IMG/VR virus record: IMGVR_UViG_3300006793_000231
Location: 1-26,665 of that record
Strand: one strand, 5' to 3'
Source of the DNA: a virus
DNA length: 26,665 nucleotides
The notes under the pieces are model-generated. The model was not told the DNA's origin. It was given only the letters and a program-made list of their open reading frames with translations, and made no database searches. Below, piece after piece: positions 1 through 12,729 of this stretch. The translations under genes were made by a program, and so were the position numbers. Each line of letters starts with the position of its first letter. Position 1 is the stretch's first letter.

Positions 1-84
1 AAGGTTGTGGATAGTATAGAGGCATACATGCACCTGCATGGCGTGTCGTTTAGTGAGGCAGTTAAGGAGATAAATAAATTATGA
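1..84 (+). CDS. C-terminal fragment of a probable CHC2 zinc-finger primase-type protein
   Basis: Frame 1 is open from the window edge to TGA at 82-84 and gives 27 residues; the N-terminus lies outside the window. The visible part reads AYMHLHGVSFSEAVKEINKL. This matches the shape of the last helix of CHC2-type primase zinc-binding domains (hydrophobic run, G-x-SF-x-EAV), which in known proteins binds template DNA for primer synthesis. The stop overlaps the next start as ATGA, so the two genes are translationally coupled, and the neighbour is a P-loop ATPase, as expected for a primase-helicase pair. It is the only TGA stop seen in the window. Assignment rests on a short tail and is tentative. 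Confidence 0.5.
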   Translation, partial: KVVDSIEAYMHLHGVSFSEAVKEINKL

Positions 85-1313
85 CACTACCAGACATCAA
101 AAAAGAAATACAGAAGTACCAGTACTTTGACGACACATCAGTCATCGACTTCTCCGTTGCCACTGTCATCGCCAACAGGCTTAAACTAACCGACCCTGTC
201 TGGGCAGTTGTTATCGGTGCGTCTTCTGGTGGTAAGTCGCAAATCCTACGACCCATTGCAGAAGCCAACAAAGATTTTATCAAGCGTGTAGATGACCTTA
301 CCGAGAACACCCTATTGTCTGGCGCTAAAAGCAAGGAGGGTAATACATCACTACTTAAGAACAAGGACGGCAGTAACTGGGCGCAAGGTATGCTTGCTAT
401 TTCCGACCTTACTGTCCTTATGAGCAAGAGTGGTGAAAGTCGCGCGACTATCCTGTCACAGTTCCGTATGCTCTTTGACGGCGAGATGACCAAGTATAGT
501 GGTAACCTCACAGAACCATTGAAGTGGTCTGGCTACTTGGGCGTGATCGCTGGGTCTACACCCTCTATATATGCAACCTTTGAAGAGGTGGCAGACATGG
601 GAGAGCGTTTTATATACTATCGAATGAAAGAGTTTGACGCTAAGAAGGCTACGCACTTGGCGCTAAATCGTGACATTTTTGGTAAAGAGCTAGACGGGCT
701 GTTGGCTGACCTATATAGAGAATACATTGAGGAGGTTGTTAAGTCGCATGTTGATGTACACGTTGAGTTAGATGAATCCGTAGTACAGCGCATAATACAG
801 GTGGCTACCTTCGCTGAAACAGTGCGTACAGCTTCCCACAAGGAATGGAATGGAGATATTGACCGACTGCCTGTGCCTGCCTACCCTATGCGTGTGGCGT
901 TGCAACTAACAGCTATCGCTAAGGCGTTGGCTATCATGCGACATGCCGATACCGGGAGTTATGAGCTTGGCGAGCGTGAGTTGGCAATCATTGACTGGAC
1001 TGGCTACTCGTTGGCTAACGAGGAGAAGCGTGCCTGTCTGCATATACTAGCAGAGCAAGATTTTGAACACGCCGTCACTACCTCGACTATTGCCGATCGC
1101 GTTGGGTTGAAATCCGAGATAATACAAACAATACTCCAGAACCTTTCGGCTGTTGGAGTTGTTGTTCGTGGCGGTGGCGGTGGTATGGACTCGATGTCAT
1201 GGTCTTTCAAGAATAAAGACGATTATGCGGTTGTACGGCGTATAGAATCCGTGACAGTGACTGACAATATAGAAAGTCGTGACGCGACTGTTGAAGAAGA
1301 TGTCGAGTTTTAG
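81..1313 (+). CDS. P-loop ATPase with C-terminal winged helix, probable replicative helicase-like protein
   Basis: A 410-residue protein. A Walker A motif (GASSGGKS, residues 46-53) follows a hydrophobic strand, and a Walker B-like strand ends at D109 (LAISDLT). A sensor-like strand GVIAGSTPS follows at roughly 155-165. Residues about 315-375 look like a winged helix-turn-helix (TIADRVGLKSEIIQTILQNL), then a glycine run. The order AAA-type core then winged helix recalls MCM-like and phage primase/helicase ATPases that unwind DNA at the fork; the exact family is not identified. The start is fixed by the ATGA overlap with the primase fragment and by AAGGAG at 64-69. The last residues, EEDVEF, resemble an SSB-type acidic tip and recur at the end of the small protein at 4548-4721. 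The stop overlaps the convergent gene at 1310-1411 by 4 bases. Confidence 0.7.
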   Translation: MTLPDIKKEIQKYQYFDDTSVIDFSVATVIANRLKLTDPVWAVVIGASSGGKSQILRPIAEANKDFIKRVDDLTENTLLSGAKSKEGNTSLLKNKDGSNWAQGMLAISDLTVLMSKSGESRATILSQFRMLFDGEMTKYSGNLTEPLKWSGYLGVIAGSTPSIYATFEEVADMGERFIYYRMKEFDAKKATHLALNRDIFGKELDGLLADLYREYIEEVVKSHVDVHVELDESVVQRIIQVATFAETVRTASHKEWNGDIDRLPVPAYPMRVALQLTAIAKALAIMRHADTGSYELGERELAIIDWTGYSLANEEKRACLHILAEQDFEHAVTTSTIADRVGLKSEIIQTILQNLSAVGVVVRGGGGGMDSMSWSFKNKDDYAVVRRIESVTVTDNIESRDATVEEDVEF

Positions 1314-1415: not shown

Positions 1416-1607
1416 CTATCTATTTAATTGTTGATCGGTCACATTAATACGCCTGATCCAATTGGCGAAATCATTAAAGTCAAAGCCGTTTTCATCTACC
1501 TTTCTTCTATATTCATGTGTTTGACTTCTAAACTCCGTCAATAGTTCCCATAATAATTCTTTCATTTCACCTAAGTCTCTTTCTGATGGTTGTGTTGTGT
1601 GTTTCAT
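1416..1607 (-). CDS. 63-aa hypothetical protein
   Basis: A charged, mostly helical small protein (ERDLGEMKELLWELLTEF in the first third, then a DFNDFANWIRRI segment). It lies 8 bases after the helix-turn-helix gene at 1616-1969 and 4 bases before the gene at 1310-1411, so it is probably co-transcribed. The start lacks a Shine-Dalgarno sequence and follows an A/T tract shared with its downstream neighbour. It ends in TAG, whereas the rest of the minus-strand block ends in TAA. I do not recognise a family. Small early phage proteins of this kind often bind host proteins, but nothing in the sequence shows that here. Confidence 0.6.
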   Translation of the reverse strand: MKHTTQPSERDLGEMKELLWELLTEFRSQTHEYRRKVDENGFDFNDFANWIRRINVTDQQLNR

Positions 1608-1615
1608 ATTACTAT

Positions 1616-1969
1616 TTATTTAATTGTTAATCGTGGTCGCCCTTGGTGCGGTAGTACGGCGTATCCTGCCTTGCGTAGCTTTGCCACCCACCTGTTCACT
1701 GTTATAGGCGTTCGGTTGTAGCGCTTGGCGATCTGCGCGTAGGTCATGTGCTGTTCGTTTATAAGGGGTATGATGTCTGTTAGTTTCATGTCAATAACAT
1801 GATTGATTAAGTCAACAAGATCTTCTACTGCTTTTATTCTTTGCTTTAATCTCTCATCATCTGCCTTAATTGGATTAAATTCTTCTGTGGGATTAAATTT
1901 GTTTGCGTTCTTTAATGATTTTTTAGCTTGTGTTATTACTTCTGTCACATTGTCTTGATTGATTTTCAT
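1616..1969 (-). CDS. Helix-turn-helix protein, probable phage regulator
   Basis: A 117-residue protein. The N-terminal 75 residues are charged and probably helical. The C-terminal 43 residues form a clear helix-turn-helix of the Mor/resolvase-like class: MTYAQIAKRYNRTPITVNRW, then a basic stretch ending QGRPRLTIK. Y-A-Q-I-A-x-R-Y then T-x-x-T-V-x-R-W is the usual spacing of helix 2 and the recognition helix. It presumably binds DNA and could regulate the early/late switch or the block itself; the target is unknown. Its start overlaps the upstream stop by one base (TAATG), which indicates translational coupling. It is the only protein in the minus-strand block with a recognisable DNA-binding fold. 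Confidence 0.7.
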   Translation of the reverse strand: MKINQDNVTEVITQAKKSLKNANKFNPTEEFNPIKADDERLKQRIKAVEDLVDLINHVIDMKLTDIIPLINEQHMTYAQIAKRYNRTPITVNRWVAKLRKAGYAVLPHQGRPRLTIK

Positions 1970-2157
1970 TATAGTTTATCGTTATCGGCGTGCTTGATAT
2001 ATGTCACATCATCATCACGATCTGTGATTGATAAATACTCTATCAATAGCTGATTAGCTTTGATTAGCAGATCTTCTACTTTTTCTTTGTCCTCATGTTG
2101 CTCGTTAAAGCGCTCGAAATAAAGGGACGTGTCCTTGCGTAGTTGTCTAATGTTCAT
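1969..2157 (-). CDS. 62-aa acidic hypothetical protein
   Basis: A charged helical protein (RQLRKDTSLYFERFNEQHED, then a heptad-like KVEDLLIKANQLLIEYL stretch) ending in an Asp-rich tail. It is separated by 5 bases from the upstream gene and overlaps the downstream helix-turn-helix gene by one base (TAATG). There is no Shine-Dalgarno sequence; the start is preceded by ACTTATAATAACC. No family is recognised. Coupling to the regulator gene may mean that the two proteins act together, but that is only context. Confidence 0.6.
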   Translation of the reverse strand: MNIRQLRKDTSLYFERFNEQHEDKEKVEDLLIKANQLLIEYLSITDRDDDVTYIKHADNDKL

Positions 2158-2162
2158 GGTTA

Positions 2163-2342
2163 TTATAAGTTATCTAGGTGTCTGATAAATTTTATCTCTA
2201 TATCCATTTTAGGCTTGTCTTTTCCTTGTCGCCAAATGTCTGTGCCGTCTTCTTCTTCGTCCAAAAGAAAGAAGCCCTGTTCGGTAAGAAAGATATATGT
2301 TTCTTTTAACTTCTCTGCATACTGTTTATTTGATTCGTCCAT
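2163..2342 (-). CDS. 59-aa hypothetical protein
   Basis: A small protein starting MDESNKQYAEKLKETYIFLT with a central acidic patch (LLDEEEDGTDIW) and a basic C-terminal third. It starts one base after the stop of the gene at 2344-2478, in the sequence ACAATTAATATGG, and ends 5 bases before the next start. This packing and shared start context argue that it is real despite its length. The plus-strand frame at 2143-2358 is open over the same bases but has no gene-like context, so the minus strand is preferred. No family is recognised. Confidence 0.55.
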   Translation of the reverse strand: MDESNKQYAEKLKETYIFLTEQGFFLLDEEEDGTDIWRQGKDKPKMDIEIKFIRHLDNL

Positions 2343-2343
2343 A

Positions 2344-2478
2344 TTAATTGTTTGTTAATTGTTTGATAATCTCGTTTATGGTCATCTTTTTTCCTTTATA
2401 ATCAGCTATTACACCTCCAAAACCATTCTTTGCAAGATCTTTGAGTGTAGATAGATATATTTGTTGTTCTTTTGTCAT
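2344..2478 (-). CDS. 44-aa hypothetical protein
   Basis: Begins MTKEQQIYLSTLKDLAKNGF, followed by GGVIADYKGKKMTINE and a short helical end. The alternation of a helix, a Gly-Gly turn and a strand-like VIADYKG suggests a small compact fold. It starts one base after the previous stop (TAACATG) in an AACAATTAAC context and is followed one base later by the next start. No known domain. Included because the tandem stop/start packing on both sides is regular. Confidence 0.5.
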   Translation of the reverse strand: MTKEQQIYLSTLKDLAKNGFGGVIADYKGKKMTINEIIKQLTNN

Positions 2479-2479
2479 G

Positions 2480-2602
2480 TTAATTGTTTGTTATCGCTGT
2501 TAATGCCTCGCCTAGCGCCTTGTCTAGGTCATAGTCTTGGTGTACCGACAGGGTTTTGCGTACTGTGATGTACCAGATGTTTTGTATTTTATAGATGTGC
2601 AT
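2480..2602 (-). CDS. 40-aa hypothetical protein
   Basis: Begins MHIYKIQNIWYITVRKTLSV, a strand-rich N-terminus, then an amphipathic helix (DYDLDKALGEALTAI). The strand-strand-helix pattern resembles many tiny phage proteins of unknown role. It starts 4 bases after the stop at 2607 and ends one base before the next start. No Shine-Dalgarno sequence. No family recognised. Confidence 0.5.
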   Translation of the reverse strand: MHIYKIQNIWYITVRKTLSVHQDYDLDKALGEALTAITNN

Positions 2603-2606
2603 GGTG

Positions 2607-2867
2607 TTATATTGTTATTTCGTGCTGACAATTGTCGCAATGGATTGTGATTTCTTCGTCTGCCTCCTGTAAATAGTCTAATAACGCCAGTATGCCGTTG
2701 ATAGACTCCACCGCTGTGTTTTCTCCTGCATTAAGAGGGTTGTCTTTCTTGTATCGGTCGACTGCCTCTCTGATTTTGTTTTGTATTTTTTCATGTTTAA
2801 TAGTGGTTATCGCCAATATTCTCTGATAATATGTCAATTGTCTTGGGTTCGCTCCTATGTCCGTCAA
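2607..2867 (-). CDS. Small protein with a C-terminal CxxC motif; start uncertain
   Basis: As read from the ATG at 2867 it has 86 residues, but that start lies 71 bases inside the upstream gene (2797-3003), deeper than any other overlap in the block. No other in-frame ATG exists; a TTG near 2818 (LAITTIKHEK...) would cut the overlap to about 22 bases. The central part is helical (IQNKIREAVDRYKKD; ESINGILALLDYLQEADEE). The C-terminus is ITIHCDNCQHEITI, a single CxxC plus His that could form half of a zinc site. A competing 38-codon ORF starts at the ATG just after the upstream stop in another frame, but its product looks less protein-like. Function unknown. Confidence 0.5.
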   Translation of the reverse strand: MTDIGANPRQLTYYQRILAITTIKHEKIQNKIREAVDRYKKDNPLNAGENTAVESINGILALLDYLQEADEEITIHCDNCQHEITI

Positions 2868-3003
2868 TCATAATATATGCTGTGCCGTCCAGTTGGTGTT
2901 GTACTGTTAGCCGTTGAAAGCTATCAGGGTTCGTGTAGAGTTCTGCCTGTACCTCTTTATCCTCCACTTTCTCCAGTGCTGTTATTAGTTGTGCTATTGT
3001 CAT
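2797..3003 (-). CDS. 68-aa hypothetical protein
   Basis: Begins MTIAQLITALEKVEDKEVQA and continues with strand-like segments (RLTVQHQLDGTAYIMIDG). The start MTIAQLITALEKV and the following acidic turn resemble small phage proteins that begin with a helix used for dimerisation, but no family can be named. Start and stop spacing (2 bases after the upstream stop) fits the operon. The start follows ATATAAAC without a Shine-Dalgarno sequence. Confidence 0.6.
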   Translation of the reverse strand: MTIAQLITALEKVEDKEVQAELYTNPDSFQRLTVQHQLDGTAYIMIDGHRSEPKTIDILSENIGDNHY

Positions 3004-3005
3004 GT

Positions 3006-3134
3006 TTATATGAATTTAATGGTTAGTAATACCAAGGCAAGGGCGACTATGAATAGTGCCATAGCTGTGATGTCCGTTGCTATCTTGGCGTGGCGCTTGC
3101 GCCTGAATTGCTTGTATAGTTGCGAGTGTTGCAT
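3006..3134 (-). CDS. 42-aa single-span membrane protein
   Basis: A basic N-terminal half (KQFRRKRHAK, residues 8-17) is followed by one strongly hydrophobic segment (ITAMALFIVALALVLLTIKF, about residues 22-41). This predicts one membrane helix with the positive N-terminus inside the cell. It starts 2 bases after the upstream stop and ends 2 bases before the next start, so it fits the operon exactly. Similar small membrane proteins in phage early regions act in superinfection exclusion or on host envelope functions; a role is not shown here. The coding sequence contains GGCGCTTGCGCC, part of a recurrent 10-mer (see findings). Confidence 0.55.
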   Translation of the reverse strand: MQHSQLYKQFRRKRHAKIATDITAMALFIVALALVLLTIKFI

Positions 3135-3136
3135 GG

Positions 3137-3391
3137 TTATATTGCATTATTAAGGATATCTAATAATCGTTTGAAGTCTGATTGTTGCTGTTCGTTGCCG
3201 TGATTGTTGACTTGGTCGTCAACAGTTTCCATAATTGCGTGCTTGAAACCCTCGCAAATATCCCAAGTACCGCAAAAATAGTTCATAGCTTTCTCCAACA
3301 CTTTCATACTTTCATCACTATTTTCCATTTCTGAAAGTGTGTTGTGGATTTCATCTTGTAAGTTCTCTAGTGGTGTATGTTCTTGTTGCAT
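3137..3391 (-). CDS. 84-aa acidic hypothetical protein
   Basis: A helical, acidic protein (ENLQDEIHNTLSEMENSDES, then EKAMNYFCGTWDICEGF, ending FKRLLDILNNAI) with two cysteines seven positions apart. It is the second gene of the block, 47 bases after the first, and the next gene starts 2 bases after its stop. No Shine-Dalgarno sequence; the start follows AATTAAATAACACC. No domain is recognised. Confidence 0.6.
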   Translation of the reverse strand: MQQEHTPLENLQDEIHNTLSEMENSDESMKVLEKAMNYFCGTWDICEGFKHAIMETVDDQVNNHGNEQQQSDFKRLLDILNNAI

Positions 3392-3438
3392 GGTGTTATT
3401 TAATTAGATTGATAAATTTCGCAATGTAAAAACCGCTT

Positions 3439-3801
3439 TTATTCCTCCTCCTCTAATGTCTCCATTAGTGTGTTGTAGTCCTCTCTTAACTGTTCCTCGT
3501 GCCAGAAGTATAAATCGCTCATCATCATTTCAATGATTGATTTCTTTGGCTCGTACTCTCCAACAATTTCAAGAGTTAGCTCATGTGCGTCTGGTGTGTC
3601 GCCCCATTCCTTTATAATGTCGTGATTATATACAGGTACTCGTCCGTCTGCGTACTCTGATATATAGTCCTCCAGATCTTTGACTGTCTTGTCGCCGTAT
3701 AAGTAGCCTTCAATAAAGTATATTAGTTCGTCTTTATCGTTTAGCCCTTTGATATTTTCAATCACTTTTGTGATACGCTCGATTTCTTTTTTGTTTTCCA
3801 T
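3439..3801 (-). CDS. 120-aa strongly acidic protein, first gene of the minus-strand block
   Basis: Glu/Asp-rich throughout, ending in ETLEEEE. It has helical segments (KKEIERITKVIENIKGL; DELIYFIEGYLYGDKTVKDL) and a tyrosine/tryptophan-containing C-terminal half (MMMSDLYFWHEEQLREDY). Its acidity and position as the first gene after a strong promoter resemble DNA-mimic or host-takeover proteins of other phages, but no specific family is recognisable and the comparison is only by composition. The mRNA would begin about 43 bases upstream with a hairpin (3827-3842). No Shine-Dalgarno sequence. Confidence 0.65.
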   Translation of the reverse strand: MENKKEIERITKVIENIKGLNDKDELIYFIEGYLYGDKTVKDLEDYISEYADGRVPVYNHDIIKEWGDTPDAHELTLEIVGEYEPKKSIIEMMMSDLYFWHEEQLREDYNTLMETLEEEE

Positions 3802-3826
3802 GTTATATGTTGTTAGTTGTTAGTAT

Positions 3827-3842
3827 GACCAGTTGCCTGATC
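3827..3842 (-). promoter_or_regulatory. 5'-end hairpin with GCAA tetraloop in the minus-strand leader
   Basis: Read on the minus strand, GATCAG-GCAA-CTGGTC forms a 6-bp stem with one G-U pair and a GNRA-type loop. It begins within about 1-3 bases of the transcription start predicted from the promoter at 3851-3878. Hairpins at the extreme 5' end are known to protect mRNAs from decay, so this may stabilise the early transcript. Confidence 0.4.
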
Positions 3843-3850
3843 TGTATTAA

Positions 3851-3878
3851 AGTGTATCAAATACCATATCATTGTCAA
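3851..3878 (-). promoter_or_regulatory. Sigma70-type promoter of the minus-strand gene block
   Basis: On the minus strand, TTGACA (3878-3873) and TACACT (3856-3851) are 16 bases apart. The -35 box is a perfect consensus. The predicted start, near 3844, gives a leader of about 43 bases before the ATG at 3801. It is the only good promoter found for the twelve small genes. Confidence 0.6.
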
Positions 3879-3897
3879 GTACTTTTGATCGACTGAC

Positions 3898-3906
3898 TGT
3901 GGATAA
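3898..3906 (-). promoter_or_regulatory. DnaA-box-like site
   Basis: TGTGGATAA is the exact complement of the classic TTATCCACA DnaA box. A single perfect 9-mer could occur by chance about once or less in a window this size, but it lies in the only large gap, next to repeats and A/T-rich DNA. A replication origin is possible. Confidence 0.35.
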
Positions 3907-3977
3907 CTATTGAGGGGCAGAATGGGTCGCTTTTCTTGACAGGTGCGTTGGTTCTGTGTTGTATTGGTGTTCGTGTC

Positions 3978-4108
3978 TTGACTTTTTCTCTTGACAGGTG
4001 TACCATTAGGGGGCTAGACCCCCCACACGGGGAGGTCGCCTCCGAATGGCGACGATATTGTATAATATGTTGTTGTTTATAGCCCTCTTTTGAGGGTTTT
4101 CTCTTTTT
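3978..4108 (+). ncRNA. Candidate structured small RNA or attenuator ending at an intrinsic terminator
   Basis: TTGACT (3978-3983), 17 bases, then TACCAT (4001-4006) could start a transcript near 4013. A chain of overlapping stems follows: GGGGG/CCCCC (4009-4023), ACCCCCC/GGGGAGGT (4018-4036, one mismatch), GGAGG/CCTCC (4031-4043) and GTCGCC/GGCGAC (4035-4053). Neighbouring stems exclude each other. The transcript would stop at 4097-4108. No gene lies upstream on this strand except one 2.6 kb away beyond a convergent block, so the terminator probably serves a local RNA. Promoter strength and RNA limits are guesses. Confidence 0.3.
4081..4108 (+). terminator. Rho-independent terminator
   Basis: CCCTC (4083-4087), loop TTTT, GAGGG (4092-4096), extended by a G-U and an A-T pair, then TTTTCTCTTTTT. 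The T-tract is only on the plus strand, so it ends plus-strand transcription. Confidence 0.7.
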
Positions 4109-4172
4109 GATGGCTAATATAAAGGCTCGTTTGGCTTGTGTTTTGTGTGTTTTGATAGTTTTGTAGGCTCTT

Positions 4173-4270
4173 TCGTATTAAATAATATACGATTTTTTTA
4201 TGCTAACGGAAAAATGGACTGTTTCACCTTAAATAGCGTTGTTTGTCAATTGCTATAAAATATACGATTT
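4173..4270. repeat. Repeated ATACGA half-sites, candidate operator
   Basis: TCGTAT (4173-4178) and ATACGA (4187-4192) form an inverted pair 8 bases apart. AATATACGATTT occurs at 4184-4195 and again at 4259-4270. A degenerate TTACGA (4303-4308) overlaps the predicted start site of the next gene. That gene encodes a likely ribbon-helix-helix protein, and such proteins bind repeated short half-sites, so autoregulation is plausible but unproven. Confidence 0.35.
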
Positions 4271-4293
4271 GATATTATGTAGGGTATTATTGG

Positions 4294-4302
4294 TGGTATA
4301 AA
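4294..4302 (+). promoter_or_regulatory. Extended -10 promoter (TGG-TATAAA)
   Basis: TGGTATAAA followed by TTACGATAAT and the ATG at 4313. No -35 box is seen at 16-18 bases, as is usual for extended -10 promoters. The predicted start near 4309 leaves a leader of about 4 bases. Confidence 0.5.
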
Positions 4303-4312
4303 TTACGATAAT

Positions 4313-4555
4313 ATGAAAAATAAAAGAGTGGAGATCATGTTAGACGAGAATAATAAGCAAAGGATTAAGTCGATGGCGGTTCTTGCTTTTGAGCTTGGTA
4401 AGACTAATAATAAGACTGTTAGCGCGCTTGTTAGAGAATATCTTATTCCAAAAGGTGAAAAGGCACTGGAGAAGGAGAGGCAATTGTCGCTGATTGCCGA
4501 TAAGGAGGAGAGAAGGGCAAAATTTTTAGCTTATCAACAAAAAAATCATGGATAA
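4313..4555 (+). CDS. Probable ribbon-helix-helix transcriptional regulator
   Basis: An 80-residue protein. It begins with a strand-like KNKRVEIMLDENNKQRIKSM and a second helix TVSALVREYLIPKG, the pattern of the CopG/Arc ribbon-helix-helix fold (beta strand, helix A, turn, helix B with S-x-x-V-R-E). A 10-residue insert between the helices (FELGKTNNK) is longer than usual. The C-terminal third is a charged coiled-coil-like helix (EKERQLSLIADKEERRAKFL). Such proteins bind DNA as dimers and often repress their own promoter; repeated half-sites lie upstream. The last 8 bases overlap the next start. Its place at the left end of the plus-strand late genes would suit a control role. Confidence 0.6.
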   Translation: MKNKRVEIMLDENNKQRIKSMAVLAFELGKTNNKTVSALVREYLIPKGEKALEKERQLSLIADKEERRAKFLAYQQKNHG

Positions 4556-4721
4556 ATTATATAGGTTTATAGTTATATTGGAGGAGGACAAGTTTAATGA
4601 CATGAATAGTATTCTAGCAAAATCAAATTGGAATACTGCCGAGGAGTTGTTATTAAATGAGCTTATCCCTTTAGGTTTAGAGAAATATAGAACCTCTATT
4701 GAGGACGATGTAGAGTTTTAG
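4548..4721 (+). CDS. 57-aa small protein, possible second ribbon-helix-helix-like partner
   Basis: Starts MDKLYRFIVILEEDKFNDMN with a strand-like beginning and then two helices (SILAKSNWNTAEELLLNELI and a short PLGLEKY). The layout strand, helix, turn, helix with LIP-x-G-x-EK echoes the preceding protein (YLIPKGEKAL against ELIPLGLEKY), so it may be a diverged paralogue. The genes overlap by 8 bases, which suggests coupling and perhaps a heteromer. The C-terminus, EDDVEF, is nearly the same as the end of the ATPase at 81-1313. A hairpin terminator follows at 4781-4823. Confidence 0.55.
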   Translation: MDKLYRFIVILEEDKFNDMNSILAKSNWNTAEELLLNELIPLGLEKYRTSIEDDVEF

Positions 4722-4734
4722 AGGATAAGGCACA

Positions 4735-4800
4735 AGGCGCAAGGACACCAGACAACAGGCGCAAGATCACCAGACAACAGGCGCAAGAACACTAGCACAA
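4735..4800 (+). repeat. Three tandem 22-bp repeats upstream of the candidate small terminase
   Basis: Copies at 4735-4756, 4757-4778 and 4779-4800 share the start AGGCGCAAG and a central CACCAGACAAC (CACTAGCACAA in copy three). Copies one and two differ at two positions. There are no spacers, so this is not a CRISPR array. Terminase small subunits of phages such as lambda and SPP1 bind repeats near their own genes, so a packaging-start (pac/cos) role is a reasonable guess. The third copy also forms the left arm of a terminator hairpin. Confidence 0.6.
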
Positions 4801-4823
4801 GGTGACTTGCGCTTTTGTCTTTT
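4781..4823 (+). terminator. Probable intrinsic terminator built from the third repeat
   Basis: GCGCAAG (4781-4787) pairs with CTTGCGC (4806-4812); CAC and GTG can pair inside the 18-base loop. TTTTGTCTTTT follows directly. It would end the transcript of the two small genes at 4313-4721. The right arm also supplies the TTGCGC box of the next promoter. Confidence 0.5.
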
Positions 4824-4835
4824 GTAGGGTAGAAT
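4807..4835 (+). promoter_or_regulatory. Sigma70-type promoter TTGCGC-17-TAGAAT
   Basis: TTGCGC (4807-4812) and TAGAAT (4830-4835) are 17 bases apart. The sequence GGTAGAATTAGTAC matches the GGTATAATTA pattern seen before other late genes. The predicted start near 4842 is about 2 bases before the chosen ATG at 4844. Confidence 0.5.
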
Positions 4836-4843
4836 TAGTACAA

Positions 4844-5314
4844 ATGCAGAATGATAATGGCAACATAATAGAAAATGAGGAGGATTTAGACAAAAGCGAG
4901 GCGCAAAACGCGCCTGTAAGCGATTTAAATGAGGAAGATGACCCAGTCATCGAGCCAGAAGTAGTCAAAGTAAAGCGCAATGCACTTGGTCAGCTTGCCA
5001 AAGGTCAAGTGCTCAACCCTAACGGCCGACCTGCTGGCGCTATCAACATGACTAGCAAGTTAAAGAACGCCTTGTCTATTGTTGGCGAGGGGCGACACGC
5101 CTCTGCTGATTTGGAGATAGTGGACAAGGTGCTAGAGTTAGCAAAGCAAGGTGACAAGGCAATGATCCAATTGATATGGAACTATGTAGACGGCAAGCCT
5201 ATCCAAAGGATTGACCACACCTCGCTAGGTGAGGGAGTACAGGCGCTAAGTGACGAGCAAATGGAGAAGTTAAACAACACATTTAGCAAAGAGTCAAATG
5301 AAACGGACGAATAA
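4844..5314 (+). CDS. DUF5681-type protein, candidate terminase small subunit
   Basis: A 156-residue protein from the ATG at 4844. An in-frame ATG at 4802 is rejected because it lies inside the terminator hairpin and upstream of the promoter. Residues 1-36 are very acidic. Residues about 47-66 contain KGQVLNPNGRPAG, the signature of the DUF5681 family (G-Q-x-x-N-P-x-G-R-P-x-G). That family often sits just before phage terminase or portal genes and is thought to contain small-terminase-like DNA-binding proteins. Helices follow (TSKLKNALSIV; DKVLELAKQGDKAMIQLIWNY). The gene stands between tandem repeats and the large terminase, which fits recognition of packaging DNA. The end overlaps the next gene by 17 bases. 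Confidence 0.6.
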   Translation: MQNDNGNIIENEEDLDKSEAQNAPVSDLNEEDDPVIEPEVVKVKRNALGQLAKGQVLNPNGRPAGAINMTSKLKNALSIVGEGRHASADLEIVDKVLELAKQGDKAMIQLIWNYVDGKPIQRIDHTSLGEGVQALSDEQMEKLNNTFSKESNETDE

Positions 5315-5480
5315 ACAAATGATTGGAGACATTCTATGGTGCGTGGCGCTTGGCGCTGTGTGCCTGTTAGGTGTTGCGTTAGCCGTCCTTGTGTACAGGT
5401 TCATAGTGGACGCGTGGGCAGGCATTGCGATCGTGGCTGTGGCCATGGTGCTAGGCGCGTGGTGCGTGGGGAGGGGGTAG
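5298..5480 (+). CDS. Small two-span membrane protein, holin-like by size only
   Basis: A 60-residue protein with a short basic start (MKRTNKQ) and two hydrophobic segments, about residues 12-33 (ILWCVALGAVCLLGVALAVL) and 40-55 (AWAGIAIVAVAMVLGAW), joined by a short loop with RFIVD. Both ends are basic, so both are expected inside the cell. It starts inside the preceding gene (17-base overlap, different frame), which suggests coupled translation. Its size and topology are like those of some holins, but no lysis enzyme is next to it. Other possible roles are membrane anchoring or superinfection control. A second ATG at codon 8 is also possible. Confidence 0.5.
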   Translation: MKRTNKQMIGDILWCVALGAVCLLGVALAVLVYRFIVDAWAGIAIVAVAMVLGAWCVGRG

Positions 5481-5555
5481 TAATTGACCCTTGCCCTTCG
5501 TTCGGTTGATAAAAGTTAGGGTGCCGCAAAATAGTATAATCAATTTTTCCAATCC

Positions 5556-5665
5556 ATTGACAACGCCCCACGCCCATGGCATTATTTATGGATTGACAAC
5601 GCCCCACGCCCATGGCATAAGTGATTAAGGTAATAATTGACAACGCCCCACGCACCTGGTGAAAT
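5556..5665 (+). repeat. Three promoter-like direct repeats upstream of the large terminase
   Basis: Copies begin at 5556, 5592 and 5636. Each has TTGACA, then a G+C-rich 17-base spacer starting ACGCCCCACGC, then a -10-like hexamer (CATTAT at 5580, CATAAG at 5616, TGAAAT at 5660). The first two copies are identical over 27 bases; the third changes CCATGG to ACCTGG. The spacing is exactly that of a sigma70 promoter. They may be tandem promoters for the terminase, or binding sites for a protein that also shape promoter activity. They fill most of the 229-base gap before the terminase. Confidence 0.6.
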
Positions 5666-5709
5666 ATATATATAATTTTTTTTCAATAACTTGACAACAT
5701 ACAAAAAGA

Positions 5710-7221
5710 ATGGCAATAGACCCTAAGAAAATCAAAATGATAGCGGAGCTGACCCCTGCAGAGAGGAAGTATATTCTGTCTAAGGAGGAGAATTTCCCTT
5801 ACTTTTTCGTGTATTATTTTGTTGATTATGTGAACTATCCTTTTGCTGACTTCCACTATGATATGTTCAGCGACGTGGCGAAGATGATTAATTGTGAGTT
5901 GCGGGAGGTTGGGTGGATTGCGTTTCGTGAATCGGCTAAAACATCTATTGCAAAGGGCTTCGTTACCTACTTGGCGGCATATAATAAGCGTAACTATATT
6001 AATGTGGACTCGTATTCTAAGGAGAATGCTGAGCGTATCTTGTTCGATATTGTGTTGGAAATGCAGACGAACAAGCGTTTGGTGGAGGATTTCGGGCAGA
6101 TGTATAATGCTAAGAGGGAGAATAATGAGGTGACGCAGAAGAGGGTGTCAAACTTCATTACGAACAACGGGGTGCGTGTGGAGGCTCACTCGACTCAGGA
6201 GCCTGTGCGAGGTAGGCTGTCACGACAGTTTCGTCCTGATGCGGTGATTTTGGATGACTTTGAGACGGATAAGACTATTGCATCGGAGGCTACTACACTG
6301 TCCATCAGGAACCACATTGGGGAGTTCCAGGGAGGTTTGGCACCTAATGCTTTTGTGCTTTATTTGGGGAACTACATTTCGGAGTACTGTAATGTGCAGT
6401 GGTTGATGGATCGTGCGAAGGAGGACGATAAGATAATGATTAGGAATATCCCTGTGATGGTAAGCGATGAGCCTACATGGCCAGGGAAGTATGTGCGGAA
6501 TGATGTGGATAAAGTTGGGGATAATGTGGATAAGGTGTCGATTGAGACGATTGAGAAGCGGTTGTCTAGTCCTGATGAGGGTAATAGGAGGTTCTTGGCG
6601 GAAATGATGAATGAGCCTGTTGATTACAGTCATCAGATTTTTCATAAGGAGATGTTTAAATATGTGGAGTGGGATGACATAACGGCGAAAAGTACTGCTT
6701 GTTATGTGACTATTGATACGGCGGTGTCACAGGAGGCGAAGGCGGACTATACGGGGATTACGATTAACTGGGTGGACACCGAGGGTATGTGGCATTTGAA
6801 GTCGTTTAGGAAGAAGATCACGCCGACAGAGGTGATTGATTTGATATTTGGGCTACACAACCAATATCATCCAGAGAAGATAGGGATTGAGAAGGGGATG
6901 TATACGAGTGTCATTAAGCCTTTCTTGCAGGAGGAGATGCGCGAGAGGAATGTATATCCGTATATAGTGGAGGTGGAGCATCAGAATAAGAAGAAGGAGG
7001 CGCGTATTGAGTGGTTGTTGCCACGCTACGAGGCGGGGAGTATCTTCCATTTGAAGGGGGAGTGTGGGGATTTGGAGAATGAGCTAATGCGACACCCAGT
7101 AAACGTACATGATGACGTGGCGGATAGTGCTTCAATGCAGACGCAGATTGCTCAACGGCGGTATTCCGAGGGGCTGGAGGAGTTAAATGAGCCAGAAACA
7201 TATTCTGACATCGGAATTTAG
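5710..7221 (+). CDS. terL: Terminase large subunit (ATPase plus nuclease)
   Basis: The 503-residue packaging motor that pumps DNA into the capsid and cuts the concatemer. The ATPase half has a deviant Walker A (FRESAKTS, residues 72-79, with R73 and K77), Walker B with D182-D183 (AVILDDFE), and a motif III-like YLGNY (218-222). The nuclease half has the RNase H-like acids D336 (TIDTAVS), E394 (IGIEKG) and D468-D469 (HDDVADS). Length is typical of the Terminase_6-type family. Codons ending in G or T dominate (many GTG, TTG, AGG and CGT), unlike the coat gene, where A-ending codons and CGA prevail. There is no Shine-Dalgarno sequence; TTGACAAC lies 19 bases before the ATG. Confidence 0.95.
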   Translation: MAIDPKKIKMIAELTPAERKYILSKEENFPYFFVYYFVDYVNYPFADFHYDMFSDVAKMINCELREVGWIAFRESAKTSIAKGFVTYLAAYNKRNYINVDSYSKENAERILFDIVLEMQTNKRLVEDFGQMYNAKRENNEVTQKRVSNFITNNGVRVEAHSTQEPVRGRLSRQFRPDAVILDDFETDKTIASEATTLSIRNHIGEFQGGLAPNAFVLYLGNYISEYCNVQWLMDRAKEDDKIMIRNIPVMVSDEPTWPGKYVRNDVDKVGDNVDKVSIETIEKRLSSPDEGNRRFLAEMMNEPVDYSHQIFHKEMFKYVEWDDITAKSTACYVTIDTAVSQEAKADYTGITINWVDTEGMWHLKSFRKKITPTEVIDLIFGLHNQYHPEKIGIEKGMYTSVIKPFLQEEMRERNVYPYIVEVEHQNKKKEARIEWLLPRYEAGSIFHLKGECGDLENELMRHPVNVHDDVADSASMQTQIAQRRYSEGLEELNEPETYSDIGI

Positions 7222-7238: not shown

Positions 7239-7247
7239 TGGTATAAT
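7239..7247 (+). promoter_or_regulatory. Extended -10 promoter (TGG-TATAAT)
   Basis: TGGTATAATTATTA matches the motif before the gene at 20954. TTGTCA lies only 9 bases upstream, too close to act as a -35 box. The predicted start near 7254 gives a leader of about 24 bases to the ATG at 7278. Confidence 0.5.
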
Positions 7248-7471: not shown

Positions 7472-7840
7472 ATGGCATTAGTTAAGAAAAAAACCAGAAG
7501 AAAAATCAAAAGAAAGGCAGTAGGTGTTACTTCAGATATACTATCTGCACCAGCAAGGCTTAAGTCTTCAAGGTCAATAAAAAGAGATAATAAGGAGTTG
7601 GCCATTATTAAGCGAGCGAGGACAAAGTCACCAAGACGAAATCCGAATGGCTCTGTTGCATTGTGGCCTGACTTACAGGACTTATTAAATGAGGGTGAGG
7701 CAAAAAAGACAAAGGAAGAGATTAAGAAAAGACGAGCTAAAGCAAAGACTAAAGCAAAGAAGAAGGCAGATGCGAAGAAGAAAAGAGCGGCTCGTGAGAA
7801 GGCACTAACAAAGAAGATGAAAGGTGGATTTCGGCCGTAA
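7472..7840 (+). CDS. 122-aa lysine/arginine-rich protein
   Basis: Starts MALVKKKTRRKIKRKAVG. A middle part without strong bias (NGSVALWPDLQDLLNEGEA) is followed by a long helical lysine-rich stretch (about residues 78-115, KKTKEEIKKRRAKAKTKAK-type). The composition is unusual even for phages and suggests binding to DNA or RNA, perhaps inside the head. It lies between terminase and portal, where minor head proteins are often found. There is no homology that I recognise; a low-complexity protein of this kind could also be a packaging or scaffold helper. Confidence 0.55.
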   Translation: MALVKKKTRRKIKRKAVGVTSDILSAPARLKSSRSIKRDNKELAIIKRARTKSPRRNPNGSVALWPDLQDLLNEGEAKKTKEEIKKRRAKAKTKAKKKADAKKKRAAREKALTKKMKGGFRP

Positions 7841-7851
7841 TATAAAATAAT

Positions 7852-9852
7852 ATGATAAAAAAAGAGATACGCGATAAAATCGTGAGTCAGGCTCTTTCAG
7901 AAATAGAATTTGCTCGTAAGCACAAGCAGGGGAAGATTGGGAACTGGGCTAAAAACGAGTCAATGTACTATGGAGTGAAGGTGAAGTCTGATGATTCAAG
8001 AGCGAATGTGGAACTAGGACGAATGCAAGAGTTCGTTCATACGCTGATGTCTAAGATTGACGAACCGTTGAAGTTTAAGTTCGTTAAACGAAAGCCAGCA
8101 CAGAAGCCTCGTGTTGAAAGACTTAACTCACTAGCATCATTTGATGCGAACCGTGACTTCTGGGATCTTAAAGACCTTGTAGGAAAGAAGCAGGGTATTT
8201 TGTATGGTAGGGCTATGTATGCTTATCATGCTGATTCACAGGACGGATATACACCGCACCTGGAGAACATTGATGTTTATGACTTCTTGATTGATCCTTC
8301 TGCTGGAGGTATTGATATTGATAAGGCTATGTTCATGGGTCGTTATGGGGTTGTAAAGACTAAGAGCCAGTTGAAGGCGGATAAGGGTCTATATATAAAG
8401 ACTGAGATTAACAAGTTGATTGACGGTCATGGTAATGCCGATGAGAACAGTACTGAGGAGAACAACAAGAAGAACAGAACATCAGCACAGAACGTGACTG
8501 ATACTGACAAGCAGATTGTTGACCCTGATAAGTATAAGTTCTGGGAGTGGTACACAACATATAATGGTGTGCGTTATTACCTATTGCTAAATGAGAATGG
8601 CGCTCGTGCTATTCGTTGTGAGGAGTTGAAGGATGTGTTTGCTAATAACGATTGGCCGATTTGGACATGGGCAGCATTTCCTGATTTGACAGAGTTCTGG
8701 ACTCCTTCATATGCAGACTTTGTGCGTGAGATATTCATGGCGCAGTCAGTATCTGTAAACCAGATGCTTGATAACGCAGAGCAGATTAACAAACCCCAGA
8801 AATTGGTTGATGTTACAGCTCTAGAGAACTTGGCAGACATTAAGTACAAGAAGGGGGGTGTTATTAGAACTAAGGGTGGTGTTGATGTACAGAAGGCAAT
8901 GCAGATTGTAGAGACTCCTAGCATCAAGACTCCTTTGGATGTATACGCCACTCTTGAGAGTATTCAGGAGAAGGCGCTGGGTATTACAGCAGCATCTAAG
9001 GGTGTAGCTGATACTGGTGGTAAAGCTACTATCTACGAAGGGAACCAGGCTAACACAGCTGATCGTTTCGGACTGTTGAATAAATCATATGCCTTTGGTT
9101 ACCGACGTTTCGCTTCTCTATATGAGAATGGTGTACGAGAACACTTATCAAAGAAGATGGCAATAGATGTACTTGGGCCAAACGGAATTGATATTAAAGA
9201 GATTAGTAAGAAGGATATCTTCTGGAAGAACGATAAGTTCGGAGTTCAAGTAGAATCATCTGCTGCGGAAGAAGCGTTGTCAATTGCTGACAAGAGAGCT
9301 AAGTTGAACTTCCTACAGTCACAGAACGGAAGCCCCGTTATTAATCCTCAGAAGTCAGTAGAAATCCAGGGGCAAATCTCTGGAATGACAGAGGAGCAGA
9401 TGCGAGAGTTGCTGGATGTGTCTGAATTTGGAGATGCCAACCTAATGGCAGAAGCAGATCGCGATATAGAAAGAATCCTCGAGGGAGAAGTATTCAAGCC
9501 AAACTTGCACGCTAATACAGCTTACCTACAACGATTTGTGGACTACTTCACAGACCATGAGGAAGATATTACGGCAGAACAGTTTGCTGGACTGGAGCGA
9601 TACATGGCTTCACTGAACCCTATTGTTGTACAAAACATGGTTCGTGAACTGGAAATCCAGAAATTGAAGCAACAGGCAATGCAGATTTCATTGGCAGAAG
9701 ACCCTAATGGGGTGACTTCTGGTGGGAATCCTACAAACCCTGCTGATGATACTAATCCTTTGAATGGGGGCGGTGGACGTATTCCAAAGCCACGAAGGAT
9801 TATTGAAGAGACATCTCAAGAGATTACAAGTAATCAAGCTAACCAATTTTAA
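7852..9852 (+). CDS. Portal protein
   Basis: A 666-residue protein, near the size of P22 gp1 (725). Portal proteins form the dodecameric ring at one capsid vertex through which DNA is packed and leaves. The N-terminal part has the usual portal features (MIKKEIRDKIVSQALSEIEF; a helical region with YGRAMYAYHAD and VYDFLIDPSAGG). Residues about 265-320 contain the WPIWTWAAFPDLTEFWTPSY and MAQSVSVNQMLDNAEQINKP regions, typical of portal stem and clip helices. The C-terminal tail is Asn/Gly/Pro-rich (NPTNPADDTNPLNGGGG) and probably flexible. The gene ends two bases before the next start. Confidence 0.85.
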   Translation: MIKKEIRDKIVSQALSEIEFARKHKQGKIGNWAKNESMYYGVKVKSDDSRANVELGRMQEFVHTLMSKIDEPLKFKFVKRKPAQKPRVERLNSLASFDANRDFWDLKDLVGKKQGILYGRAMYAYHADSQDGYTPHLENIDVYDFLIDPSAGGIDIDKAMFMGRYGVVKTKSQLKADKGLYIKTEINKLIDGHGNADENSTEENNKKNRTSAQNVTDTDKQIVDPDKYKFWEWYTTYNGVRYYLLLNENGARAIRCEELKDVFANNDWPIWTWAAFPDLTEFWTPSYADFVREIFMAQSVSVNQMLDNAEQINKPQKLVDVTALENLADIKYKKGGVIRTKGGVDVQKAMQIVETPSIKTPLDVYATLESIQEKALGITAASKGVADTGGKATIYEGNQANTADRFGLLNKSYAFGYRRFASLYENGVREHLSKKMAIDVLGPNGIDIKEISKKDIFWKNDKFGVQVESSAAEEALSIADKRAKLNFLQSQNGSPVINPQKSVEIQGQISGMTEEQMRELLDVSEFGDANLMAEADRDIERILEGEVFKPNLHANTAYLQRFVDYFTDHEEDITAEQFAGLERYMASLNPIVVQNMVRELEIQKLKQQAMQISLAEDPNGVTSGGNPTNPADDTNPLNGGGGRIPKPRRIIEETSQEITSNQANQF

Positions 9853-10530: not shown

Positions 10531-10535
10531 CACAT

Positions 10536-10553
10536 CGCAAGGTGTGTCTTGCG
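10536..10553 (+). terminator. Hairpin after the portal gene group, possible weak terminator
   Basis: CGCAAG (10536-10541), loop GTGTGT, CTTGCG (10548-10553). No T-tract follows, so it may be a processing or protein-binding hairpin rather than a terminator. The stem matches that at 4781-4812. Confidence 0.35.
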
Positions 10554-10602
10554 CCTGTCAGCTTCCCATTCGGCTGTCGGACGCAGGACTTACCTTACGA
10601 GA

Positions 10603-10631
10603 TTGTCACAAGGACATTTATAAGGTATAAT
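10603..10631 (+). promoter_or_regulatory. Strong sigma70-type promoter of the scaffold/capsid operon
   Basis: TTGTCA (10603-10608), 17 bases, then a perfect TATAAT (10626-10631). It is the best consensus promoter in the window and fits the need for high coat expression. The predicted start is near 10639, about 68 bases before the ATG. Confidence 0.7.
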
Positions 10632-10638
10632 TACTAAT

Positions 10639-10706
10639 AACGAGGGTAAACTCGGTCAAGTTTATCAGAGAGGCACTTACCTCGCTTTAAATAAAAAGGA
10701 TAAAAT
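10639..10706 (+). promoter_or_regulatory. Structured 5' leader of the scaffold/capsid mRNA
   Basis: CGAGG-G-TAA (10641-10649) can pair with TTACCTCG (10677-10684) over 8 bp with one bulge. Local alternatives are CGAG/CTCG (10641-10654), GGTAAAC/GTTTATC (10645-10666, one G-U) and GAGG/CCTC (10670-10683). The stem would begin about +3 of the mRNA. AAGGA (10696-10700) is a Shine-Dalgarno-like site, unusual for this phage. Confidence 0.45.
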
Positions 10707-11511: not shown

Positions 11512-12729
11512 ATGGCATTAAACGATTTCCAAGAGAAATTTGATAATAGTTACCAAGAAATCTTCCAGAAAGTATTGGTTTCAAAACCTATTGCAAACTC
11601 TCGATTCATGAGTGAATTAACTTATGGAGAATCTTTGGAACGATTCGCTTACGACATCTCAGGTGTTCAAGTGCGAGACGTGACACGAGGTTCAGCTTCA
11701 ACAATCGACACAATAACTGACTCAACAGAATTGATTCAAGTTAACATCGAAAAAGAAGCAACATTCCACCTATCAGATGGTGAAATGACTCAAGCAGGTC
11801 CACTTAGCCCAGGAGAAGTGATTGGAGGAAAGGTAGCAAAGAAAGTTGCTATTGACCTTGACGCACGATTCTTCGGAGAAGTGTCAAACGCAAATAACAC
11901 TTTTGACACAGGAGACCTAACTACTTTAGCTTCAACAGGTACACCTATTACTTTGAGCAACACAACTGTTCCTCAAATGGTGGCACGAATGAACGCTAAA
12001 CTACAATACGCAGAGAACATTGATACTTCATCAAACATGGCTCTTGTTGTAGACGCTTACGCAGTAGCAGATATTGAAGAATACCTATTGAGTAAGAACA
12101 TTGACCTTGCTGGAGCAACATTCCGAAACGGATACGCAGGTTCAGTAAACGGAGCAGAGGTATATGTTTCTAACAACCTAACAGGAGAAGTAGTGTTGGG
12201 ACTAGCAACAAACCCTACTGATGGAGATACAATAACTGTTAACGGAATTGTATTCACTTTTGAAGCTACTCTAGCAACAGCAGGAGGACTTCACATCGGA
12301 TCAGCAGTTGATGCTACACGAGCAAACGCAGCAGTAGCTATGAACGCTATTGATACAGCGATTGCAGAAGCAACAGACACTGGTTACCAAGTTCTTTCAG
12401 CAGCAGACCAAGCTACTTGGAATGCTCTACAAGTTACAGCAACAGACTCAGCATCAGCTGACACGTTGACACTTGTATGTAAAGGAGCTGGACGACTTAT
12501 CGTTTCAGAAACTCTTACAGATGGTACAGATACATTTGAAAGTCCATTCATCCACTCTTACTTTGGTAAGAAAGGAGCAATTGACTTGGTTACACAAGAC
12601 GTGTCACCAGTTGACGTACGAAAGACAGCTGACCGAAGAGGATCAAACATCTTCTCAAGTTACCTAGCTGGAATCAAAACTTTCGCAGACGGAGCAAAGC
12701 AGTTCCTAGATGTAAAAATCATTGCGTAG
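11512..12729 (+). CDS. Major capsid (coat) protein with an inserted domain
   Basis: A 405-residue protein placed directly after the scaffold. Residues 1-225 and 344-405 read as an HK97-fold coat (PLSPGEVIGGKVAKKVAIDL; DAYAVADIEEYLLSK; ending SSYLAGIKTFADGAKQFLDV). Residues about 226-343 form an insertion of the phage beta-domain type (NPTDGDTITVNGIVFTFEAT, AMNAIDTAIAEAT, VTATDSASADTLTLVCKG), which is found in several virion proteins and probably lies on the outer surface. The gene uses CGA for 11 of 12 arginines. It starts with ATGGCA after ACAAATAA, without a Shine-Dalgarno sequence. The family is inferred from order and pattern, not from a search. Confidence 0.85.
   Translation: MALNDFQEKFDNSYQEIFQKVLVSKPIANSRFMSELTYGESLERFAYDISGVQVRDVTRGSASTIDTITDSTELIQVNIEKEATFHLSDGEMTQAGPLSPGEVIGGKVAKKVAIDLDARFFGEVSNANNTFDTGDLTTLASTGTPITLSNTTVPQMVARMNAKLQYAENIDTSSNMALVVDAYAVADIEEYLLSKNIDLAGATFRNGYAGSVNGAEVYVSNNLTGEVVLGLATNPTDGDTITVNGIVFTFEATLATAGGLHIGSAVDATRANAAVAMNAIDTAIAEATDTGYQVLSAADQATWNALQVTATDSASADTLTLVCKGAGRLIVSETLTDGTDTFESPFIHSYFGKKGAIDLVTQDVSPVDVRKTADRRGSNIFSSYLAGIKTFADGAKQFLDVKIIA

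Follow-up and report, generated by a model that had tools for sequence, protein, structure and literature searches.

The window analysed here, a virus record of 26,665 bases, has a podovirus-like gene order. Its plus-strand gene at 81-1313 is followed by a set of genes at 1416-3801 on the minus strand, the first of them showing a weak match to an Ocr-like anti-restriction family. The next plus-strand gene starts at 4313, ahead of the packaging and structural genes, and the divergent gap between the two sets contains most of the features considered in this work:

81-1313, plus strand: gene without a clear terminator
1416-3801, minus strand: genes directed away from the plus-strand terminator of the gap
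3851-3878, minus strand: TTGACA-16-TACACT, divergent promoter serving the minus-strand genes (promoter scan)
3936-3965, plus strand: candidate promoter TTGACA-18-TGTATT, 10 of 12 consensus matches, predicted start at ~3972
3978-4006, plus strand: promoter-like match TTGACT-17-TACCAT, predicted start at ~4013
4003-4049, plus strand: long nested hairpin (MFE and ensemble folding)
4008-4088, plus strand: possible 9-bp antiterminator, 4008-4016 with 4080-4088 (folding; not clearly higher than expected from composition)
4046-4093, plus strand: possible 15-residue ORF MATILYNMLLFIALF, with GGGGAGG upstream at 4029-4035 and its stop within the terminator loop
4050-4075, plus strand: second hairpin, with many G-U pairs in the plus-strand sense (fold and strand comparison)
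4081-4108, plus strand: intrinsic terminator with a 7-bp stem, a TTTT loop and a U-rich tail (terminator scan)
4250-4278, plus strand: separate promoter TTGCTA-17-TATTAT directly before gene 4313 (promoter scan)
5710-7221: large terminase
7852-9852: portal
11512-12729: capsid
From 12797: tail adaptor

Relatives were drawn from IMG/VR, where a capsid search yielded 80 loci. They include a near-identical phage (L002, 99.9%), a species with 75% terminase identity (L005) and several at ~50%, among them L007 and L008. Two loci at 44-45% sit within bacterial assemblies, and one of them, L014, is labelled Patescibacteria; the host of the phage is thus probably a Patescibacterium. Among 380 Patescibacteria genomes, one had a strong capsid match and two had a weak one. 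Compared with the window at 3783-3822, the near-identical phage harbours at 7681-8113 an extra 56-residue gene with repeats of a leader and start (AACAACTAACAACATAYAACATGGAAAACAAAAAAGAAA) on either side, and the window version apparently lost this gene by recombination between the AACAACTAACAACATAYAACATGGAAAACAAAAAAGAAA repeats. Further along in the window, three direct repeats with 22-bp spacing (GGCGCAAG..CACCAGACAACA) at 4728-4795 precede a small-terminase-like gene and may be operators or iterons.

The terminator is the clearest plus-strand one with a canonical U-tail in our scans. Its G+C-rich stem at 4081-4098 is directly followed by the U-rich stretch TTCTCTTTTT, and no plus-strand gene lies immediately upstream, in keeping with its description as an orphan in a previous, sequence-only reading of this DNA. 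That reading placed the start of transcription at ~4013 on the basis of TTGACT-17-TACCAT, which is indeed present. However, both the -10 box at 4001-4006 and the start at ~4013 fall within the outer 5' arm of the nested hairpin. Such a start would remove the first of the stems proposed in the same reading (4009-4023) as well as the outer stem of the nested hairpin, and is in conflict with the evidence described below that this arm belongs to the structure. A start at ~3972, by contrast, retains the whole hairpin. The corresponding candidate promoter is one of two copies of CTTGACAGGTG, and the 10-mer TTGACAGGTG occurs in the window only at 3936 and 3991. Neither candidate promoter (3936 or 3978) clearly exceeds chance, as 12 promoter-like matches were found between 3000 and 6000 against 8.5 +/- 2.4 in shuffled sequences.

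The segment folds with unusual stability. The z-score for 4001-4110 on the plus strand, -6.5, is the lowest among 1,328 windows taken on both strands of the 26.7-kb sequence; values of -6.0 (300 shuffles) and -4.4 were obtained for 4001-4108 and 3960-4115, respectively, and none of 200 shuffles of the latter was as stable. The favoured order is the nested hairpin, the G-U-rich hairpin and the terminator, and in the full RNA the nested hairpin and the terminator each form with probability ~1. The nested hairpin is built from the arms CCATT/AATGG (4003-4007/4045-4049), GGGGGC/GCCTCC (4009-4014/4038-4043), GACC/GGTC (4017-4020/4034-4037) and CCCC/GGGG (4021-4024/4029-4032), with A4033 bulged and an ACAC loop. 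When the outer 12-nt 5' arm was randomised, the real stability was reached in only 2 of 500 trials, which indicates that this arm is part of the structure; for the second hairpin, it was matched in 6 of 500. Over 4000-4100, the z-score is -6.8 for the plus strand and -4.2 for the minus strand, a difference due to several pairs that are G-U when read on the plus strand. Together with the plus-strand U-tract, these G-U pairs favour a plus-strand RNA. We regard the hairpin at 4003-4049 as a true RNA structure with a strand bias, and the terminator as a normal one.

The same segment had been described as a ladder of four mutually exclusive stems (4009-4023, 4018-4036, 4031-4043 and 4035-4053). All four are present at these positions, their sequences overlap, and folded alone they have energies of -8.6, -10.3, -5.7 and -9.8 kcal/mol. 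In the ensemble for 3970-4110, however, the base pairs examined have a probability of ~0 for stems 1, 3 and 4, and of ~1 for stem 2. Imposing stem 1, 3 or 4 on 3970-4108 costs 11-12 kcal/mol. What is stable is not a ladder but a single nested hairpin, in which the arm 4009-4014 closes with 4038-4043 around stem 2. In folds of the growing chain, stem 1 forms first, stem 2 next and the nested hairpin last; stem 1 is thus at most a folding intermediate. Of the earlier proposal of a short structured or attenuated plus-strand transcript, the strand asymmetry makes a short RNA with its end at the terminator plausible, and the four-stem switch is not supported.

We looked for the element elsewhere. 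At the gathering score, Rfam searches gave no match in the window or in six relatives, and no riboswitch or leader family matched the element; weak sub-threshold matches to CRISPR-repeat and rimP families were taken as chance. No tRNA or tmRNA was detected. A DNA search of phage records with 3801-5800 gave no match, and with the element as query blastn against phage records gave nothing but a chance match of 26 bases. In IMG/VR, hairpin patterns, whether exact or degenerate, matched only the contig of the near-identical phage, which carries an identical copy, the only one found outside the window. A single-sequence covariance model (R1) found no other locus in 68 sources, and the same model, run without a positive control on 96 Patescibacteria genomes, found none. 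One Patescibacteria genome has a partial match of 36 bases, which proved a singleton in a pattern search of 380 genomes, and a dif/Xer-like reading of 4050-4078 was dropped, as its pattern does not recur in the 380 genomes. Similarly, a CCCC-tetraloop-GGGG-A motif common to L047, L018 and L069 was discarded as a sign of homology, the covariance model of the window element missing all three.

The gaps of some relatives have other contents. In L005, the equivalent gap harbours a promoter directly ahead of the small-terminase-like gene. In L008, the gap ahead of the terminase genes holds a structured stretch of ~220 nt (727-945), bounded by a TTGACA-17-TATACT promoter and a U-tract resembling that of a terminator, and in L025 a tRNA-like sequence with a GTT anticodon is found in the divergent gap (3600-3675).

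We tentatively favour, as the leading reading, a short RNA that is terminated by default and serves chiefly to halt transcription ahead of the packaging operon. We infer that a plus-strand RNA of ~100-135 nt would start in the divergent gap, at ~3972 rather than 4013. The nascent RNA would fold at once into the very stable nested hairpin and the second hairpin and be released at the terminator, termination being the default outcome. The main effect would be to block leaky or antisense plus-strand transcription from entering the packaging operon, which would be driven by its own downstream promoters. Gene 81-1313, being without a clear terminator, could feed such antisense transcription through the minus-strand genes. 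Downstream, a GGTATAATTA motif recurs on the plus strand directly upstream of structural genes, at 7242, 10626, 15303 and 20938, and is probably a late-type promoter of the phage. With promoters of this type before the later structural genes and gene 4313 having its own, there is no need for read-through from the gap RNA. Nevertheless, a nested 47-nt hairpin followed by a second one is more than a plain stop needs, and a terminator at the equivalent position is not consistently kept in relatives.

It is rather unlikely that the gap harbours a transcription attenuator, in which 4008-4016 would pair either with 4038-4043, leaving the terminator free, or with 4080-4088, forming an antiterminator within a multibranch fold. 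The choice would be tipped by a protein, a ribosome or a small molecule, allowing RNA polymerase to proceed into gene 4313 and the packaging operon. The 9-bp antiterminator is compatible with both stem 2 and the second hairpin, and in a chain ending at 4093 its stability equals that of the free fold; once the terminator is completed, the terminator state is favoured by 5-7 kcal/mol. The pairing score was reached by upstream shuffles in 8 of 1000 cases, but by shuffled arms in 305 of 1000, and before the terminator completes shuffled leaders pair with its arm with a mean probability of 0.56-0.60. With the chain end at 4090, most shuffles pair with the terminator arm more than the real leader does; with the end at 4093, the real leader surpasses 97-99% of them. 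Because pairing with this arm is frequent among shuffled leaders, the 4008-4016/4080-4088 antiterminator is not clearly special. Gene 4313 lies 205 nt beyond the terminator with a promoter of its own, and the only copy of the element found in a relative is the identical one of L002, which offers no compensatory changes to compare. A variant in which a ribosome on the 15-residue ORF translates up to the stop in the terminator loop is unlikely, because the phage does not use Shine-Dalgarno sites: none precedes the genes of the window, whose leaders are AT-rich throughout. The status of this ORF as a gene is doubtful.

An unlikely alternative role for the RNA is regulation in trans, as a phage small RNA with its own promoter, a protective 5' hairpin and putative targets in the host or the phage. 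The stable structure would suit such a function, as would an isolated unit that combines a candidate promoter and a terminator of its own and adjoins small minus-strand genes, the first of them weakly Ocr-like; small RNAs of phages form an established class (PMC12197685). Yet the homologue searches found no related RNA beyond the near-identical phage. More generally, we consider it quite improbable that the gap encodes a phage-specific regulatory RNA, be it a late-operon attenuator based on alternative partners for 4008-4016 or a trans-acting RNA.

Still less probable is an element acting at the DNA level in the divergent gap, such as an operator, an origin or a processing hairpin, with an incidental terminator. 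Long hairpins of unrelated sequence are present in the equivalent gap of five relatives (L014, L020, L022, L047 and L088), and a -10-like box falls partly within the outer arm both in L047 and in the window. However, the G-U pairs of the window point to RNA, and at the gap the GC skew turns no more than the switch in coding strand accounts for. Scoring of 151 intergenic gaps served as a control: a segment with z below -5 occurred in 37% of 27 divergent gaps vs 22% of 100 same-direction ones, a difference that is not significant (p = 0.3 for the difference in z). Intergenic hairpins are common in this phage group, so that position alone says little. Finally, a switch in which four stems form successively, each blocking the next, is very improbable: stems 1 and 2 could arise transiently in that order during synthesis, but stems 1, 3 and 4 are virtually absent from the ensemble and costly to impose, and an RNA starting at 4013 excludes stem 1.

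Elsewhere in the phage group, a different hairpin is of more interest than the gap element. In ~30 diverged relatives and in the window (10531-10706), a long hairpin, mostly of 20-35 bp, is located upstream of the scaffold/capsid genes (L005 14605-14787; L025 9005-9230; L031 9047; L052 9041; L060 9054; also L042, L067, L082, L083, L091 and others). Its loop is usually of the CCCC(G/A)TTC type, and the hairpin is followed by TATAAT of the scaffold/capsid promoter, often as GGTATAAT, and then by a structured leader. In many relatives the leader directly past the promoter contains a complement of the loop, with both sides changing, as in the pairs CCCCGTT/AACGGGG, CCTGTT/AACAGG, CCCCAAT/ATTGGGG, CCTCGT/ACGAGG and TCCTGT/ACAGGA. 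The summed complementarity was equalled in only 11 of 2000 permutations of re-paired sets. The window has kept the hairpin without the loop-leader pairing. From these sequence comparisons, the capsid-promoter hairpin may be a novel, conserved RNA or promoter element of phages.

On present evidence, the gap element consists of a strong hairpin and an ordinary terminator. To our knowledge, phages of Patescibacteria have been little studied at the RNA level, and an RNA made in the gap would offer an early view of RNA-level control in phages of candidate phyla.

In layout, the proposed gap RNA is reminiscent of the late leader of phage lambda, PR'-6S RNA-tR', a short transcript whose promoter lies just upstream of the packaging and late genes and which ends at an intrinsic terminator. 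However, no Q-like antiterminator or qut-like site was identified in the window, and the downstream genes have their own promoters. Attenuators of the trp and pyrBI types combine a terminator, an antiterminator and an anti-antiterminator. The window has a terminator, possible counterparts of the other two and a short ORF whose stop falls within the loop of the terminator. No regulated gene follows closely, however, the element was found only in this phage and its near-identical relative, and the alternative pairings are not clearly beyond what composition yields. In the put antitermination RNA of phage HK022, two neighbouring hairpins lie close to the 5' end of the transcript, ahead of a terminator. 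The window similarly has two adjacent hairpins near the predicted 5' end followed by a terminator, but its element matches no Rfam family at the gathering score. Lastly, the candidate gap RNA, predicted from sequence, resembles the bacteriophage-derived small RNAs reviewed as a class (PMC12197685) in being short, structured, intergenic and terminator-ended.
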